27,957 nucleotides of DNA, taken from positions 1 to 27,957 of IMG/VR virus record IMGVR_UViG_3300047497_000264; one strand, 5' to 3'. Below, piece after piece: positions 2,617 to 23,133 of this stretch. Position numbers and translations under genes: made by a program. Origin of the DNA: a virus. Numbering within the stretch: the first letter of the stretch is position 1; each line of letters opens with the position of its first letter. The notes below the pieces were generated by a model, which saw nothing but the letters and a program-made list of their open reading frames with translations, searched no databases and had not been told where the DNA came from.

Positions 2617-2874
2617 GTGGCAACAGTGAACATCACCGATGAAGCCCTCAAAGAACTGAGTGATGTTCCCCGACCGATTCAGAAGAGAATTTACGACATT
2701 GTAGCGCGGCTGGAGAAGTGGCCAGCGGTGAGTGGAGCAAAGCCTCTGCGCGGCGATCTGCAAGGCAGCTTTCGCATTCGCACCGGCGATTACCGCGTGG
2801 TGTTCAACGTGTCGGTCGATGGTCAGACGGTCAAGGTGTGGAAGATCGGTTACCGCGGCTCGGTGTATGAATGA
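2617..2874 (+). CDS. RelE/HigB-family toxin
   Basis: An 85-aa protein of the RelE/ParE superfamily. The family signature is in the second half: KPLRGDLQGSFRIRTGDYRV, then a strand (VVFNV), and a C-terminal KIGYRGSVYE. In RelE-type toxins this fold makes a ribosome-dependent mRNA interferase using basic residues on those strands; activity here is by family. It starts with GTG at 2617, directly at the predicted transcription start, with no leader for a ribosome binding site. The toxin precedes its antitoxin, as in higBA modules. It may instead be a host-inhibition gene of the phage lysogeny switch, because its promoter is back-to-back with another phage promoter. Confidence 0.85.
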   Translation: MATVNITDEALKELSDVPRPIQKRIYDIVARLEKWPAVSGAKPLRGDLQGSFRIRTGDYRVVFNVSVDGQTVKVWKIGYRGSVYE

Positions 2875-2885
2875 CAGGAGCAATC

Positions 2886-3212
2886 ATGGCACACGCAACG
2901 ATGACGATGAACGATGAAGTGTTCGTGCTGGTTCCCCAGCGCGAGTATGCGAAATTGACTGCGCAGCTTCCCGAGATGCCCCCTGCCAATGCGGACGGCA
3001 CATATCCGGCGCTGCCGGCGATGCGCGTGACGATGGCCCGCTCGATCATGAAGGACCGGCTGTCGGCCGGCATGACTCAGCGGCAACTGGCCGATGCGGC
3101 GGGTGTGCGGATCGAAACGATCAACAGGATTGAAAAGGGAAAGGTGATGCCCGATACGCGCACCATCCTGAAGATCGACAAGGCACTGAAGCTCGCGAGC
3201 AATCGCAAATGA
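2886..3212 (+). CDS. XRE-family antitoxin or repressor
   Basis: A 108-aa DNA-binding protein. Residues about 1-45 form a small beta-rich arm (EVFVLVPQREYAKL) typical of antitoxins placed behind RelE-type toxins. Residues about 53-105 are a lambda-repressor-type helix-turn-helix (MTQRQLADAAGVRIETINRIEKG). The start at 2886 is chosen because AGGAG at 2876-2880 stands five bases before it. An in-frame ATG at 2871 overlaps the toxin stop as ATGA and would add five residues. Coupled to the toxin, it should neutralise it and repress the shared promoter, probably through the repeats at 2539-2580. It could also act as the prophage repressor, since no other repressor candidate is in the window. Confidence 0.85.
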   Translation: MAHATMTMNDEVFVLVPQREYAKLTAQLPEMPPANADGTYPALPAMRVTMARSIMKDRLSAGMTQRQLADAAGVRIETINRIEKGKVMPDTRTILKIDKALKLASNRK

Positions 3213-4985: not shown

Positions 4986-6932
4986 CTACCTTCCGTCAGA
5001 CACGCCAAACACCACCACCGGCCGGCGCGATTCCTGCTGTTTCTGCCAGGTGGCGAACTTTTCGAAGGCGGCGTTGGCTTCGCTTTGGAGCTTGACGGCT
5101 TCGTCGGAATTCCTGGCGATGCGCTCCTGCGGATCCGCCTTCGCCCGCGCCGCCGCGGCGACGCCGGTGACCAGCAGTCCGCGCTCCTGCAGATCGGCCG
5201 TTTTCTTGAGCGGATCGCGCTTGTCCAAACCAACGGATTTGTCGAACTCTTTGCCGAGCGTTGCCGCGTAGGCTTTGAGGTTTGCGGTCGCAGCGGCTTT
5301 GTCGGCGGCCGTCGCGTTGGGGTTGTTGATGATGTCCGCGGTCTTGCGCGCCTCTTGGTTGTATTTTTTCTTGAGCTCCAAAACCTCAAGCTGCTTTTGC
5401 GCATCCCGCCGTTCCTGGAACGTCGCGCCGTTTTCTGCCTCCGCCCGCAGCGCATCGCTCTTTTGATCCTCGAGTTGTTTCACGACGCCGGCATGATCGG
5501 CGGTTTTGAGCGCCGCCAGCTCGGCCAGGGCGACGGCCCGCTCAGCGGGCGTGAGCTGCTGTTTGAGCAGGTCCAGGAGTTTCTTCTGCTCATCGTTGTT
5601 CGCCCGCGCCGCTTCGAGGCGTTTGAGTTCGGCTTCGGCAGCCTCGTCGCCGGCGTCGGCCGCGTGTTTGAGCGCATCGACCTGGCCGTCCTGCAGCGTC
5701 TTTACGACCGATTCCTGCTGCGTTTTCCTCGCAAGCGCCGCCGCCTCTTTCGCGTCGGCGTCGATGGCGATGGATTGCTCGGCCGCAACGCGCCTGAAAT
5801 CAGCGGCATCCTTGTCGGATGCACCTTTGAGCTGTTCCTTCAGCGCCTTGGCGATCGCGTCTTTTTTGTCCTGGGCATTTTTCTCGATCAGCACCAGCTC
5901 CGCGCCGAGACTGTCCCCCAGATCCTTCAGCTCTTTCGCCCGCGCGTCCTTTTTTCGATCGGCGATCGCCCGGTCGGAATCGGCGTCGAATTCGGCCATC
6001 CGCTGGGAATGTTCTTTTTGAAACTGCAACTGTTCGGCGGCGTTCAGCTTTTTGGTGTCGGCCTGCTCTGTATCGAAATCCGCGTTGATCTTTTTCTTTT
6101 CTTCGTTCGCGGCTTTCTGAAGCTGCTGCTCGGCGCGGAATGCCATCGCCGGCGACATGTCTTTGTCGGCCCGGACCTTTGACAGCGCCTCATCGCGCTT
6201 TTTGTCCGATTCTTCCAGCGCGTCCCGTCGCTTCTTTTCCACCTCGGCCAGGCGATCGGCCTGCTGAGTTTTCTGCTCGTACGCCTTGGCCGCATCGCCC
6301 TCGAGTCCGACCTTGCCGGTTTCCTCGGCAATGTGATGGCGCTCATCGGCGATCTGTTTGAGAAGCGTCTTCTGCGTGGTGAGCGTGCCGGCGATGTAGT
6401 CATCGACGGCCTTGGTGACAGCCAGTTCTTTGTTGATCTTCTGCGCGTAGTTCAGATCATCGAGCCCGATCAGCTTGCCAAACCCGCTGTTTGCAAGCCC
6501 GTCGAAACTCGCCAGGAGGTCCTTGATGTCGCGGCCCGCAGAAATGAAACCGCCGATGACCGGGATCCCTTTAGCAAGGCTCTCGACCATCTCGCCGCCG
6601 GAGATCTTGCCGGCTTTCCACTGTTCGGTGAGGTCCTTCGCCTGCGCGGCGGCTTTGCCAAGTTCACCGGCGATGAGCGTCAGCCCCAGCACAGCGCCGC
6701 CGCCCTTGAGCGTTTTGCCGAGCTGACCCAGCGGTGATCGTGCGCCCAAACCCTCTTTGAGATCCTTGAGCACGCCGCCGCCGGCGTCTCCTTTTCCGCC
6801 GGATTCCTGAGCTTCCTTGAGCTCCTTCATTTTCTTTTTGATCTGGTCAATAGAAAACGAAGCATCCTTCGCAACGGCGGTGAATCCGCCGTCGCGCATG
6901 CGGATTTCGGTTTGAAGGACTTTAACGCCCAC
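4986..6932 (-). CDS. Tail tape measure protein (probable)
   Basis: At 648 aa this is the longest gene of the tail block. It is almost entirely helical. An N-terminal coiled coil (residues 25-45) is followed by a Gly/Ala-rich hydrophobic section (about 70-150, including VLGLTLIAGELGKAAAQ), then long Lys/Glu/Ala coiled coils to the C-terminus. That pattern, directly after the frameshifted chaperone pair, fits a tape measure, which sets tail length and passes into the cell envelope during DNA entry. By the usual 0.15 nm per residue it would specify a tail near 100 nm, if unprocessed. The start is GTG, with AGGGG a few bases upstream, and it overlaps the end of the chaperone extension by 11 bases. 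Identification rests on composition and position. Confidence 0.8.
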   Translation of the reverse strand: MGVKVLQTEIRMRDGGFTAVAKDASFSIDQIKKKMKELKEAQESGGKGDAGGGVLKDLKEGLGARSPLGQLGKTLKGGGAVLGLTLIAGELGKAAAQAKDLTEQWKAGKISGGEMVESLAKGIPVIGGFISAGRDIKDLLASFDGLANSGFGKLIGLDDLNYAQKINKELAVTKAVDDYIAGTLTTQKTLLKQIADERHHIAEETGKVGLEGDAAKAYEQKTQQADRLAEVEKKRRDALEESDKKRDEALSKVRADKDMSPAMAFRAEQQLQKAANEEKKKINADFDTEQADTKKLNAAEQLQFQKEHSQRMAEFDADSDRAIADRKKDARAKELKDLGDSLGAELVLIEKNAQDKKDAIAKALKEQLKGASDKDAADFRRVAAEQSIAIDADAKEAAALARKTQQESVVKTLQDGQVDALKHAADAGDEAAEAELKRLEAARANNDEQKKLLDLLKQQLTPAERAVALAELAALKTADHAGVVKQLEDQKSDALRAEAENGATFQERRDAQKQLEVLELKKKYNQEARKTADIINNPNATAADKAAATANLKAYAATLGKEFDKSVGLDKRDPLKKTADLQERGLLVTGVAAAARAKADPQERIARNSDEAVKLQSEANAAFEKFATWQKQQESRRPVVVFGVSDGR

Positions 6933-7643
6933 GTCCGCCCCTGTTGATTCCGAGCTTGGCTTCCCACCAGTTGATCTCGGCGGTGTAGAAGTCGATCGAG
7001 TCTAAAAAGGATTGAGTCTGCGAGAGGCCGCCGCCGTCTTCTGGCGCGATCCCCTGCTCGGTAAACCGCAAAACCCACCGCAGCATCTGCCACACTTCAG
7101 CGCCGATCATCTTGCGGGCGCAGCTGGTGATTTCGACGCGGCCGGTGTCATTGCATTCGTCGCAGCCCTGGCCGTTGCAGCCAACGCATTCGATGAGGTT
7201 GGGTTGGAGCGGCGTTCCGCAATCGGCTATGCACCTGCCGGTGCGTCGGCCTTCGGCGGAATCCCGCTTGCAGATTTGTCCGAAGTAGACAGCGACCGCA
7301 AGACGGATGCTTTTTTTTCGCGCTGGCTCAGCGTCATCGCGCTGCCGAGTTCGCGGACCAGTTCCATGATGTCCGCGCGGCTCAGCAGCGCATCGGCGGT
7401 CTGCAGATCGTCGGCGTAGCCGTTCCACGCGACCAGACCCAGCGAGATGCCCTTGCACGCCTCATCAATCAGCACGTCGACATTCTCGGCGGCCAGCGCG
7501 GCGTCGAAGTGCGTTTCCATCTTCGCGTGATCCCGCGCCGACAAATACCGAAACACCAGGTATCGCTGATCGGCCTCGGGCAAGGCGCGTTGATCTTCAA
7601 GAACGTATTTGAACATGTCAGAGGTGTTGACGGAGAGCCCCAT
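6922..7643 (-). CDS. Tail assembly chaperone, long form made by -1 frameshift
   Basis: Predicted fusion of about 240 aa: the first 111 residues of the short chaperone, then 129 residues read in the -1 frame from the slippery A-tract at 7311-7317. The downstream frame has no ATG, GTG or TTG before its conserved part; the first is an internal ATG at MIGAEVWQM, after the cysteine region. This matches the lambda G/GT arrangement, where a small share of ribosomes slip to make a second chaperone that recruits the tape measure. The extension holds a cysteine cluster (CIADC, then CVGCNGQGCDEC) like the zinc-binding repeats of DnaJ, followed by a helical, Trp-rich end. It overlaps the tape-measure start. 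Frame and context are visible; efficiency is unknown. Confidence 0.75.
7227..7643 (-). CDS. Tail assembly chaperone, short form (G-like)
   Basis: A 138-aa soluble protein between the tail tube and tape-measure genes, the standard place for the first tail chaperone. It is mostly helical and acidic, with a segment (YLVFRYLSARDHAKMETHFD) typical of phage tail assembly chaperones, which coat the tape measure before tube polymerisation. The ATG at 7643 has AAGGA eight bases upstream. Its codons GAA AAA AAA GCA contain the slippery heptamer A-AAA-AAA. Most ribosomes should continue in this frame to the stop at 7227, giving a short Ala/Pro/Lys-rich tail. Confident from context plus frameshift signal. 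Confidence 0.8.
   Translation of the reverse strand: MGLSVNTSDMFKYVLEDQRALPEADQRYLVFRYLSARDHAKMETHFDAALAAENVDVLIDEACKGISLGLVAWNGYADDLQTADALLSRADIMELVRELGSAMTLSQREKKASVLRSLSTSDKSASGIPPKADAPAGA
7311..7317 (-). promoter_or_regulatory. -1 programmed ribosomal frameshift site
   Basis: On the minus strand a run of eight As (7318-7311) gives A-AAA-AAA in the reading frame of the short chaperone, followed by G. Tandem tRNA-Lys can slip back one base, after which the next codon is AGC in the long frame. A small GC hairpin (GCGG, loop AATC, CCGC, at about 7257-7268) lies downstream and could assist, but its spacing of about 45 bases is long. Confidence 0.75.
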
Positions 7644-7655
7644 CGGAAAAGTCCT

Positions 7656-8570
7656 TTAACTGAATGCGATCGACATTTCGTTGTCGCCGGCACTGGTGGC
7701 GGTGGCGAGGAAATCCAGGTCATCGGTGACCAGCAGCTCGCGCTGCGCTTCCTGGACGTTGGTGGTCTGGCACTGAGGCGCGTTGATCGTGATGGTGTTG
7801 TTGGTAACCGACCCGATAACGGCGTTGAGATTGGCGGTGCCCCCGGCGATCCACAGACCGTAGGCATCCCACGTTGAAACCAGCTCGCCGGCGGGATCGA
7901 TTTTCCCCTTGCAGTTGCGATCGGTGATGATCGCGCGGCTGTATGCCGACGCCTGGGTGATGTCTTCGATGAGCTTGGTGGTGTTGCCGGCTTCGACGCT
8001 GAACTTGCTGATTTTCGGCGTGAACGATCCCAGCGCGAAGGTTGCGGCCGCGAACCGGGGCGGTGTGACGGCGTAGGACGGCAGCGCGACCATCGCGGTG
8101 GTGGTCGGAGGCTGCCAGATCCCCTCCAGGTCGAACTTGATCATTGCCGGCTTGCCGTATTCGCCTTCGATCCCGAACGTCCCCTGACAGCCGGCCAGAG
8201 ACTTGTACCGGCCGTCTTCGTAGATCCCGACCGTTACCGTGGAAAGATTGCTTTGATTGCTGGTGAAGTTGTAGGTGTTGCCGGTGGCAACCATTCCGCA
8301 GGCGTTGAGCAGCGGCGCCCAGCCTGGCTGAGGCGTTGTGCCGCCGCCGGCGAGCTCGAAGGAAACAGTCAGCTTCCCCTTCCGGGCACCGGGGACGGCC
8401 GGCAGCTTGGAAAGCGATCCCGTCGCCACGCGATCGTGCATCGGGATCTCGGCCTGGATCATCGGATCAAAGCAGAACAGGCTCTGCGCAGAGGTGAGCG
8501 CCATCGGCGTTCCGGGCGTTGCTTCGGCCTCGAACGCAAAAACCCGGCGCTTGTAGAGAATAGTGCCCAT
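7656..8570 (-). CDS. Major tail tube protein
   Basis: A 304-aa beta-rich protein. The opening (RRVFAFEAEATPGTP) resembles the N-terminal strand of gpV-like siphovirus tube subunits, where an 'E..ETTYGT'-type loop follows the first strand. The remainder alternates short strands with Gly, Thr and Asn loops and has no transmembrane segment. Its place after the tail terminator and before the chaperones is the lambda order for gpV. The length is above the 250-aa average, so a C-terminal Ig-like extension is possible (residues about 200-300). GGGGG precedes the ATG by four bases. A hairpin 20 bases upstream may control its separate expression. Confidence 0.8.
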   Translation of the reverse strand: MGTILYKRRVFAFEAEATPGTPMALTSAQSLFCFDPMIQAEIPMHDRVATGSLSKLPAVPGARKGKLTVSFELAGGGTTPQPGWAPLLNACGMVATGNTYNFTSNQSNLSTVTVGIYEDGRYKSLAGCQGTFGIEGEYGKPAMIKFDLEGIWQPPTTTAMVALPSYAVTPPRFAAATFALGSFTPKISKFSVEAGNTTKLIEDITQASAYSRAIITDRNCKGKIDPAGELVSTWDAYGLWIAGGTANLNAVIGSVTNNTITINAPQCQTTNVQEAQRELLVTDDLDFLATATSAGDNEMSIAFS

Positions 8571-19012: not shown

Positions 19013-19083
19013 TGCAGGCGCGTGGATTCGAACCACGACCCCGACCTTGCCATGGCCGGATGCTACCGTTGCACTACGCCCGC
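19013..19083 (-). tRNA. tRNA-Ala, anticodon GGC
   Basis: A 71-base cloverleaf folded by eye on the minus strand. Acceptor GCGGGCG/CGCCTGC includes G3:U70, the alanine identity pair. D arm GTGC/GCAT with loop AACGGTA; anticodon arm CGGCC/GGTCG with loop ATGGCAA (anticodon GGC at positions 34-36); short variable loop GGGT; T arm CGTGG/CCACG with loop TTCGAAT; discriminator A; CCA not encoded. The first ten bases overlap the last codons and stop of the small terminase gene, whose TAG is bases 8-10 of the tRNA. It reads GCC and GCU codons and would be released by RNase P from the late transcript. Confidence 0.9.
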
Positions 19084-20968: not shown

Positions 20969-21438
20969 GGGCAACTCATCTCCAGACTGAGGCCGCGCAG
21001 ATGTGCGATTGCTTCGCGGATGCGCTTCCACACCGCATGCGTGGTGATTCCTTCGGCGGCCGCGATGACCGACGCGCTGTTGCCGGCAAGATGGAGGTCC
21101 ACGGTCCGGCGCTCCTTGGGTGACAGCGATGCCATGTGCGTGTGAAGAAAGTCAGCGCCATCGGGTTCACTTGGTGGCAACTGCGCTTCGCGCTCATCAG
21201 ACAGCTCACAAGGCATCGGACGTTTCTTCAGCAGGAGATTGAACACGGCGCGTTGCATGCAAGCGCGAAGAATGCGGCGCTTGGTGCGTCTGTTTTTGGC
21301 TTCAGCTTTTCTCAGCTCTGCGAGACCGGCGACGTACGCCTGCTGCACGCAGTCTTCGGCGCTTTCACTATCCCCGCGGTTGGGCTTGATTTCCGAAACC
21401 ACGTATTTCGCGAAGCCGATCAGCTCGATGTCATTCAT
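20965..21438 (-). CDS. Sigma-factor-like late regulator
   Basis: A 157-aa protein resembling a small ECF-like sigma factor. Residues 1-75 hold a sigma region 2-like helical part (GDSESAEDCVQQAYVAGLAE), RRILRACMQRAVFNLLLKKR being its second helix. After an acidic linker, residues about 100-150 form region 4 (SLSPKERRTVDLHLAGNSAS, then an HTH ending WKRIREAIAHL). It may activate late transcription, like RinA or other phage sigma-like activators. It is ATGA-coupled to genes on both sides. A second, split copy of the same type lies at 23700-24180. Confidence 0.7.
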   Translation of the reverse strand: MNDIELIGFAKYVVSEIKPNRGDSESAEDCVQQAYVAGLAELRKAEAKNRRTKRRILRACMQRAVFNLLLKKRPMPCELSDEREAQLPPSEPDGADFLHTHMASLSPKERRTVDLHLAGNSASVIAAAEGITTHAVWKRIREAIAHLRGLSLEMSCP

Positions 21439-22760
21439 TGGTTGCCTGACTTGAGCGCGGCGCCCATCATCACGTCGTGATATGGCTGTTGAACCGCGCC
21501 TTTTTCATCGAACGGGGACGCGGCATCACTCGGATCGCCTGGAAGGAAATAAAGTGGGAACGAAAGCGACATGATCGGCCGCTGACGAAGCAAACCAATC
21601 GCTTTGACCTGCTCGGCGGCCCAGATCGGGGGCGACTTGCTGGCCGGCCGCGTTCCCCATTCGGTCATCGCCAGCGGTTTGCCAACCGCTGTTGCAACCA
21701 GTTCGGCGGCGTGGGCCGCGGCCGCCACCTGCTCTGCAGAACCGACGTAGCTGTGAATGTTCACAAAATCGCAGAATTTATACGCGCCCAGAGTCTGGAG
21801 ATTGGTGACCCACGACAGGCTGTTCAGCGTCGAGGGCGCGATTACCAGGTAACCCTTGGCGTGGAGAATCGGATAGGCAACTTCCATCAGATGCGCGAGC
21901 TGCTGAACGTTGCCGGTGTAATAAGTGCCGGTGTTGACTTCGTTGCCGATCTCAACGTAGGCAGCGCCAGTGATAGATGGGGGCGGAATCGCCGAGCACC
22001 AGCCGGACCAATCCGCATCTGATGGCGCCGATCCGCGCGGCGTTGAGTTCTGGAAGTTCGCCACCAGGATCACTTTCACGCCGGCCTGATTCCAAGCAGG
22101 CAGATAGTGATAGTAACTCGCCGGCTGATGCGTTTTGAACGTGCCCTCCGTCCAGACGCGCAGCCTCGTGATTCCGGCCGCTTTGCAAAACGACAAATAT
22201 TGCGGATGCGTCGAAAGATCGATCAGCGGATCGCTGACGCCGGCAGCGTTGATTCCTATCACGCTCGGAGTGACCTGGATGAACGGGGATCCGCTGAAAG
22301 ACAAAAGCGAGATGTTGCAGAAGCCGCCTGCTGGCGAAAGATAACGAACATATCGAACCGGCGCCGTCGACGTCAGCGAATAGACACCAAATGCAGCCGG
22401 CGGTGAGTCGATTTTCAAAAGCGTGATCGCATCGGAGAAATCCGGCGAATTAGCGCCTTGAAAGATGCCGCCAGCCATGCGCTGGCTAAAACCCGGACGT
22501 GGCGCGAATGAAACCGCACCTGGCAGAAATTGCGAATGCAGGTCATACCCAACCCAAGCGCCGTCGGCCGTTGGCGCGTCGAAATAATCGCCTTTGATTC
22601 CGTCGACGGCCTTCGCGATCGTGTTGCCTTTGGATTGCCAGCTTCCGGGCGTGCCGATCAGATCACCGCTCAGGCGCGTCGTCGGCAGCGTTGCCGGCGC
22701 CGCCGCTGCGTGGGCCAGGTGAATCGTCAGGATGATCAGAATCGCGATCAATCGTCGCAT
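21435..22760 (-). CDS. Secreted glycoside hydrolase, clan A-type TIM barrel
   Basis: A 441-aa exported enzyme. The ATG at 22760 has GAGG nine bases upstream; an ATG at 22775 has none. MRRLIAILIILTIHLAHA is a clear signal peptide. Residues about 30-160 look like a beta-sandwich carbohydrate-binding domain (GYDLHSQFLP, VRYVRYLSP). The barrel from about 165 shows the clan GH-A acids: E274 in IGNEVN (acid/base, after strand 4) and E367 in AMTEWG (nucleophile, after strand 7). It cuts a polysaccharide, family and substrate unknown. In a lysis-like cassette it may degrade envelope or capsule glycans. Its first codons overlap the previous gene. Confidence 0.8.
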   Translation of the reverse strand: MRRLIAILIILTIHLAHAAAAPATLPTTRLSGDLIGTPGSWQSKGNTIAKAVDGIKGDYFDAPTADGAWVGYDLHSQFLPGAVSFAPRPGFSQRMAGGIFQGANSPDFSDAITLLKIDSPPAAFGVYSLTSTAPVRYVRYLSPAGGFCNISLLSFSGSPFIQVTPSVIGINAAGVSDPLIDLSTHPQYLSFCKAAGITRLRVWTEGTFKTHQPASYYHYLPAWNQAGVKVILVANFQNSTPRGSAPSDADWSGWCSAIPPPSITGAAYVEIGNEVNTGTYYTGNVQQLAHLMEVAYPILHAKGYLVIAPSTLNSLSWVTNLQTLGAYKFCDFVNIHSYVGSAEQVAAAAHAAELVATAVGKPLAMTEWGTRPASKSPPIWAAEQVKAIGLLRQRPIMSLSFPLYFLPGDPSDAASPFDEKGAVQQPYHDVMMGAALKSGNQ

Positions 22761-23133
22761 GGCGAATTTCCTCATGATGGTCGAAGTTGGGATCGATGCC
22801 GTGCATCCGAAGCAGCTCGCCGCGGAGAGCTGCTAAATTTTCCTGCTTGTTGCGCTCGTGTTTGAGCTCAATCACTTCGGTTTTCAGCCGGATGTTTTCA
22901 CTGGTGGCGATCTGCAAGGCGCTGGTTGCACTTGCAAGCTGTTCTTCCAGATGTTTGATGCGCTCTTCCTGCTCGGCATTCTGCACGCGCAGCGACCCGA
23001 CCGTGCTTTCGAGGTTGCGGATGCGTTGCAGCAAGCCTCGAATCTCCCCCATCAACGAAACAACCGCTTTAACCGCGGCAGCAAACGCCGTGAGAACGCC
23101 GATCGTCCAGTGAACCGCCTTGTTTTCAGACAT
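22663..23133 (-). CDS. Membrane-anchored coiled-coil protein, i-spanin-like candidate
   Basis: A 156-aa protein, with GGGGG four bases before the ATG. One N-terminal hydrophobic helix (about residues 9-30, TIGVLTAFAAAVKAVVSLM) is followed by a long coiled coil (31-105, LLQRIRNLESTVGSLRVQN...) and a Gly/Asp/Pro-rich tail. The layout fits an inner-membrane i-spanin or another membrane-tethered rod. The last 33 codons overlap the signal-peptide region of the hydrolase in another frame. The lipoprotein gene stands just upstream. Partnership with it is inferred. Confidence 0.7.
   Translation of the reverse strand: MSENKAVHWTIGVLTAFAAAVKAVVSLMGEIRGLLQRIRNLESTVGSLRVQNAEQEERIKHLEEQLASATSALQIATSENIRLKTEVIELKHERNKQENLAALRGELLRMHGIDPNFDHHEEIRHATIDRDSDHPDDSPGPRSGGAGNAADDAPER

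Follow-up and report, generated by a model that had tools for sequence, protein, structure and literature searches.

We analysed a virus record of 27,957 bases (the window, meaning this whole stretch of DNA), which probably encodes a tail-assembly chaperone of the lambda G/GT type with a structural zinc domain as its T part. The chaperone locus is read on the minus strand (Table 1). The mechanism of the frameshifted tail chaperone is already known, and it is the cysteine-rich T domain that, judged from its sequence, appears to be new. The T half of frameshifted chaperones is poorly understood, and a zinc domain for T is absent from the libraries searched. Four alternatives rank below the reading of a G/GT chaperone with a zinc domain: slippage of the RNA polymerase, a T gene of its own, disulfide formation and a clamp on the tape measure.

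Table 1. Coordinates of the chaperone locus and its neighbours in the window.
Feature	Position	Strand	Remark
Tail tube protein (Phage_tube_2)	7656..8570	-	PF18906, E 4.8e-9; likely partner of T
Short tail-assembly chaperone, G form, 138 aa	7227..7643	-	ATG start, 0 frame
Slip heptamer A_AAA_AAA	7311..7317	-	within A8 run 7318-7311, GAA AAA AAA GCA
Possible stimulatory hairpin, 4 nt past slip	7263..7307	-	weak in window; enriched in family at this place only
T extension, -1 frame, 129 aa, 8 Cys	6922..7311	-	with G codons 1-111 gives the 240-aa GT fusion
Second Cys set C14, C27, C31, C64, flanking the knuckle	7120..7272	-	probable second metal site, assignment inferred
CVGCNGQGCDEC knuckle, C42, C45, C50, C53	7153..7188	-	DnaJ/PheRS-like Cys4, probable zinc site
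PEDGGGLSQTQSF, conserved P..GG...Q...F turn	7006..7044	-	links the C-terminal helix pair of T
Presumed tape-measure protein, 648 aa	4986..6932	-	GTG start; from position and length; likely partner of G

Gene order, slip site and the -1 frame

The G reading frame occupies the slot taken by lambda G/GT-type chaperones between the tail tube gene, assigned here by Pfam, and the tape-measure gene, assigned by position and length only. The G frame contains an in-frame -1 slip heptamer close to its end. Behind this heptamer, the -1 frame is coding, stays open to the tape-measure start and has no conserved start of its own; its end overlaps the tape-measure GTG at 6932. Neither G nor T matched a curated chaperone family in Pfam or NCBIfam, or significantly in PHROGs (for the G ORF, PHROGs were searched at E<=0.001), and the presumed tape-measure ORF had no Pfam match. 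Such a match is not a defining feature of the G/GT type, as G-T ORFs share low sequence similarity (review, PMC5009743).

The original prediction had described an in-frame A-AAA-AAA in the short chaperone, followed by a -1 frame open for 129 codons to the tape-measure start. Both were confirmed: the heptamer lies at 7317-7311 of the minus strand, and reading in -1 from it gives SIRLAVAVYFGQICKRDSAEGRRTGRCIADCGTPLQPNLIECVGCNGQGCDECNDTGRVEITSCARK... for 129 aa, from 7311 to the stop at 6922. The 240-aa length of the fusion was likewise confirmed by reading the sequence. The prediction also stated that the extension has no usable start. In the window, the first in-frame ATG, GTG or TTG past the slip is found at codon 68, downstream of all cysteines. 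Two -1-frame starts lie upstream within G (e.g., GTG 7458), a region where the frame is closed in the closest relative.

This relative is the one contig found by a tail-tube search (L003; tube 52% identical), and it presents the same order as the window, i.e., tube, G, slip, -1 extension and tape measure. Its slip reads GAT AAA AAA AAA TCC (A9), and a TAA shuts the -1 frame immediately upstream. Identity reaches 47% for T, with 8/8 cysteines kept, 34% for G and 43% for the ORF in the tape-measure slot. The conserved N-terminal T stretch IRLAVA precedes any possible start codon in this contig and, the frame being closed by the TAA, a frameshift fusion is the sole plausible route to it. A single-sequence peptide search of the viral contigs with T, followed by a two-sequence profile, gave nothing beyond this contig.

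An open frame as long as that of T was obtained in 958 of 20,000 random sequences with the nearest-neighbour base statistics of the window (about 5%). The length of the open -1 frame is by itself weak evidence; it is the cysteine motif and above all the conservation that are remarkable, and conservation is the decisive evidence that T is beyond chance. Strong purifying selection acts on the T extension frame: when close relatives were compared in 28 independent pairs, 190/114/721 substitutions were counted at its codon positions 1/2/3, with a pN/pS of 0.05. One could still propose that T is a separate protein made from its own internal start, or that the -1 frame is not expressed, in view of the frequency of such open frames in random sequences of the same composition and of the two possible starts within G. 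This is extremely unlikely, considering that IRLAVA lies ahead of any start in the closest relative, with a TAA just upstream, that all cysteines of the window extension precede the first start past the slip, that pN/pS is so low and that dozens of relatives retain the slip site.

Elsewhere in the window, ARAGORN predicted a tRNA-Ala (GGC) at 19013-19083 (-), flanked by the presumed genes for the small and the large terminase and overlapping the end of an ORF at 19628-19074. At 2617-3212 (+), a gene for a ParE-type toxin overlaps the helix-turn-helix gene behind it; the two lie on the other strand from the phage structural genes and likely form a toxin-antitoxin pair. At 21435-22775 (-), a 446-aa ORF with a signal-peptide-like start has the look of a secreted glycoside hydrolase, with no match in Pfam.

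Cysteines and predicted fold of the extension

The T extension harbors cysteines at positions 14, 27, 31, 42, 45, 50, 53 and 64, which make up 6.2% of its residues; among seven further structural proteins encoded in the window, the share is 0-1.9%. The DnaJ-like zinc pattern previously noticed is indeed present as CVGCNGQGCDEC, and zinc binding is suggested by this sequence and by the predicted fold; the two further nearby cysteines mentioned with it have to be corrected to four. The motif C..C.G.GC..C occurred in 5 of 200,000 shuffles of the extension. The knuckle is present in 56/56 aligned members, partly through how members were selected, and across the same alignment C14, C27 and C64 are conserved or almost so, G93, G94 and Q98 are invariant, and P90 and F102 almost invariant. 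As the second site opens in the window with the lone C14 and not with a CxxC, its ligands are uncertain. On the basis of the sequence and the predicted fold, the T cysteines most likely coordinate one or two zinc ions with a structural role.

AlphaFold2 was run on the window extension with the 56 aligned sequences and yielded a mean pLDDT of 83.5 and a pTM of 0.75, with a pLDDT over 90 in the knuckle region. The predicted model comprises a helix at residues 2-9, two helices at 71-86 and 96-120, and two short strands either side of the knuckle. Fold searches with T gave no significant match: the best one in the PDB was the Cys4 knuckle of PheRS alpha (2rhq; rmsd 1.0 over 25 columns), whose E of 1.0 is not significant alone, and anti-TRAP (RtpA) was also found, weakly. 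In profile comparisons, T matched PheRS with an E of 0.0017 and RtpA with an E of 0.72. The central zinc domain of DnaJ is formed by four CxxCxGxG repeats after a J domain; T contains a single CxxCxGxG and a single CxxCxxxG, lacks a J domain and matches nothing in Pfam.

The cysteines might alternatively form disulfides or fulfil a redox role instead of binding metal, and the even number of eight in the window would suit such pairing, some members of the family carrying 9-11. This appears very improbable to us, since the spacing CxxC-x4-CxxC with conserved glycines is that of the classical zinc knuckle and matches PheRS and anti-TRAP, and since two members (L213 and L254) each encode two complete CxxCxGxG units of the DnaJ type. 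Moreover, a tail-assembly chaperone is expected in the cytoplasm, which is a reducing compartment.

Distribution of the family

Viral contigs were scanned for relatives with a degenerate DNA pattern encoding C..CNG.GC..C; filtering the matches by a profile built from the extensions of the window and of its closest relative left more than 40 relatives. Wherever the region is intact, an upstream ORF in the 0 frame ends on an A-run and the -1 frame encodes the extension. For most of these relatives, the 0 frame stops 0-3 codons from the slip and the run is A8-A9, compared to A8 in the window. Because this search relied on cysteines, a second one was done with the Cys-free motif GG.LDQ..WF, drawn from the other end of T on the P..GG...Q...F stretch. 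It retrieved at least 86 extensions behind a canonical -1 heptamer, at least 50 of which are non-redundant at 80%. Among the 50 non-redundant extensions listed, 44 have at least 8 cysteines, two have 4 and four have 0-3, and the idea that the cysteine domain is a rare peculiarity of one phage was rejected on this basis. The original prediction did not regard a zinc-binding T-type domain as a known common feature; a cysteine-rich T is in fact the usual state in a large family, with a 4-Cys form in isolates.

A long ORF lies downstream of T in the relatives. Upstream of G, a homologue of the window tube (E <= 1.5e-8) was found in 51 of the 65 relatives examined, the upstream sequence being too short in about half of the other 14. 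A long upstream ORF that does not match the tube precedes the four extensions with 0-3 cysteines and one with 4. That the four former lack a homologue of the window tube is consistent with what a pairing of T with the tube would allow.

The heptamers of the extensions listed are A_AAA_AAA (36), A_AAA_AAC (5), A_AAA_AAG (4), G_GGA_AAC (2), G_GGA_AAG (2) and G_GGA_AAA (1). The check for conservation of the A-tract and the cysteines among relatives thus supported the prediction: the heptamer is kept or swapped for other canonical -1 sites throughout the family, and a loss of the A-tract with the second frame retained behind its own start, which would have spoken against a frameshift, is not what was observed. 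The exception is one contig (L197, about 5540-5580) with an A10 run, where the +1/-2 frame with respect to G encodes the cysteine-rich extension; this probably reflects either a homopolymer sequencing error or polymerase slippage.

RNA structure was scored against shuffles preserving the protein. Over the family, an excess was detected in the first 60 nt past the slip only (mean z -1.27, 29% below -2), compared to a mean z of -0.4 to 0.0 in eight stretches farther downstream. The hairpin of the window itself has a z of -1.1 (second estimate z -1.3, 9/100 protein-preserving shuffles). These data bear on the proposal that the RNA polymerase slips on the A8 run, producing mRNAs with an altered number of A and leading to the same protein without a ribosomal -1 shift. 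The runs of the window and of most relatives are long enough for such slippage, and the A10 contig with its extension in another frame would fit as well. We nevertheless regard it as unlikely, because the relatives with A_AAA_AAC, A_AAA_AAG, G_GGA_AAC, G_GGA_AAG or G_GGA_AAA use ribosomal tandem-slip sites devoid of long homopolymers, and because RNA structure beyond coding is found downstream of the slip.

The same slot was also read in annotated phages carrying a homologous tail tube. Extensions with four cysteines in the -1 frame (CxxC...C...CP, no second knuckle) are encoded by Alteromonas phage P24, Rhodobacter phages RcTiptonus and RcZahn, Rhizobium phages RHph_TM16, RHph_I4 and P11VFA, and Microcystis phage Mae-JY22. 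They share with the window T the slot, a canonical -1 heptamer, a KK(L/I).. start, CxxC...C...CP and a C-terminal G.LP..GG...Q, but lack the CxxCxGxGCxxC knuckle; those of P24 and RcTiptonus were picked up by the profile of the 8-Cys family. A plausible history is that a core 4-Cys domain later gained the CxGxG knuckle, the correspondence of the cysteines being left unsettled by the alignment. In P24 (MK241539, L124), an unannotated -1 extension at 6128-6433 (about 102 aa, five cysteines) separates the short chaperone from the tape measure. In RcZahn (MW677529, L155), the region 6404-6826 contains an in-frame A_AAA_AAC at 6407-6413 and an open -1 frame (KKLRLGVMAIRLMPERSCAGC...) that runs into annotated gene 28; the authors of this genome reported no clear frameshift evidence in the tail chaperone genes (PMC8601537).

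Cysteine-poor extensions are found in Synechococcus phages S-CBS1 and S-LBS1, Rhodobacter phage RC1, Thiobacimonas phage P1 and Pelagibaca phage P1. That of S-CBS1 served as a positive control and matches DUF1799 (PF08809) with an E of 2.6e-14. It lies, as in the window, in the same slot, with a homologous tail tube ahead and an in-frame A_AAA_AAC, but it is a different domain without conserved cysteines, and the window T does not match DUF1799 in Pfam. Since isolates with a homologous tube can carry such an extension, cysteines are not required by the Phage_tube_2-type tube fold.

In bacterial genomes, relatives behind -1 heptamers were present in 4 of 392 genomes of the phylum of a Planctomycetaceae MAG (L170-L173), three of them with about 8 or more cysteines, and the 4-Cys form in 3 of 399 genomes of the phylum of Novacetimonas. 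One prophage extension of the Planctomycetota phylum (L173, 1252-1758) exhibits an A8 slip, a long insert and rearranged cysteines (CVGC...CEHC), and is possibly an intermediate form. Samples of 297 genomes each of Acidobacteriota and Bacteroidota gave no match at 1e-6, which does not imply absence from these phyla, and a scan of genome contigs with the T family profile gave no confirmed relative. Several candidates were rejected: MT121966 is a phenylalanyl-tRNA synthetase gene sharing the Cys4 knuckle alone, matches that span about 30 residues within long frames of Planctomycetota genomes were read as the bare Cys4 knuckle, and those in Bacillus phages cover little beyond it (E 0.1-0.3).

Proposed assembly model and known systems

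In the proposed mechanism, most ribosomes would make the G form, while a minority would slip -1 on A_AAA_AAA and produce the GT form, both forms being expected to be absent from the virion. T would be a small domain composed of an N-terminal helix, the cysteine region and two helices linked by the P..GG...Q...F turn. The cysteine region probably folds on two structural zinc ions, bound by C42/C45/C50/C53 in a DnaJ/PheRS-like manner and by C14/C27/C31/C64, the zinc most likely being structural and keeping a short domain together. G would coat the tape-measure protein, and a few T parts would dock the adjacent tail tube protein (Phage_tube_2), starting the polymerisation of the tube around the tape measure.

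The G protein of lambda binds the tape measure and its -1-encoded T binds the major tail subunit, which links both and starts polymerisation, and neither G nor T remains in the virion (review, PMC5009743). Position and frameshift place the window gene in this class of machines, so that the most likely contact of the cysteine domain is the tube protein rather than the tape measure. The metal domain had been imagined as a metal-dependent clamp holding the tape-measure protein, an idea that could draw on the translation of T beside and overlapping the tape-measure start and on GT as a whole contacting the tape measure via G. It is an unlikely one, as the G part binds the tape measure in lambda, and T the major tail protein (PMC5009743), so that the partner proposed is probably wrong.

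A further proposal, quite unlikely in our opinion, is that the zinc or the redox state of the T cysteines acts as a switch, GT holding a tube subunit when zinc-bound and releasing it upon loss of metal or oxidation. If true, tail initiation in a large group of uncultured siphophages would depend on host zinc. Because a conserved domain is hidden in the -1 frame, gene callers miss or misplace half of the protein in many uncultured phages as well as in the isolates P24 and RcZahn. Thanks to the 4-Cys versions in Rhodobacter, Rhizobium and Alteromonas phages, the action and the partner of T are testable with simple mutants and metal assays.

We found no Pfam or NCBIfam entry for a cysteine-rich T, nothing significant in PHROGs beyond the bare knuckle, and, in a search of open papers, no text joining a tail assembly chaperone with cysteine and zinc-binding. 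The Cys4 knuckles of DnaJ, anti-TRAP and PheRS alpha share with T the spacing C-x2-C-x-G-x-G-(C)-x2-C, but this likeness is local (about 25 residues), with no homology beyond it. Lambda gpG/gpGT differs from the window by its slip site (G_GGA_AAG), the lack of detectable sequence similarity and a T devoid of cysteines. The architecture is the same, with the order major tail/tube, G, T and tape measure, T produced via a -1 shift late in G, and a T frame reaching the tape-measure start (PMC5009743).
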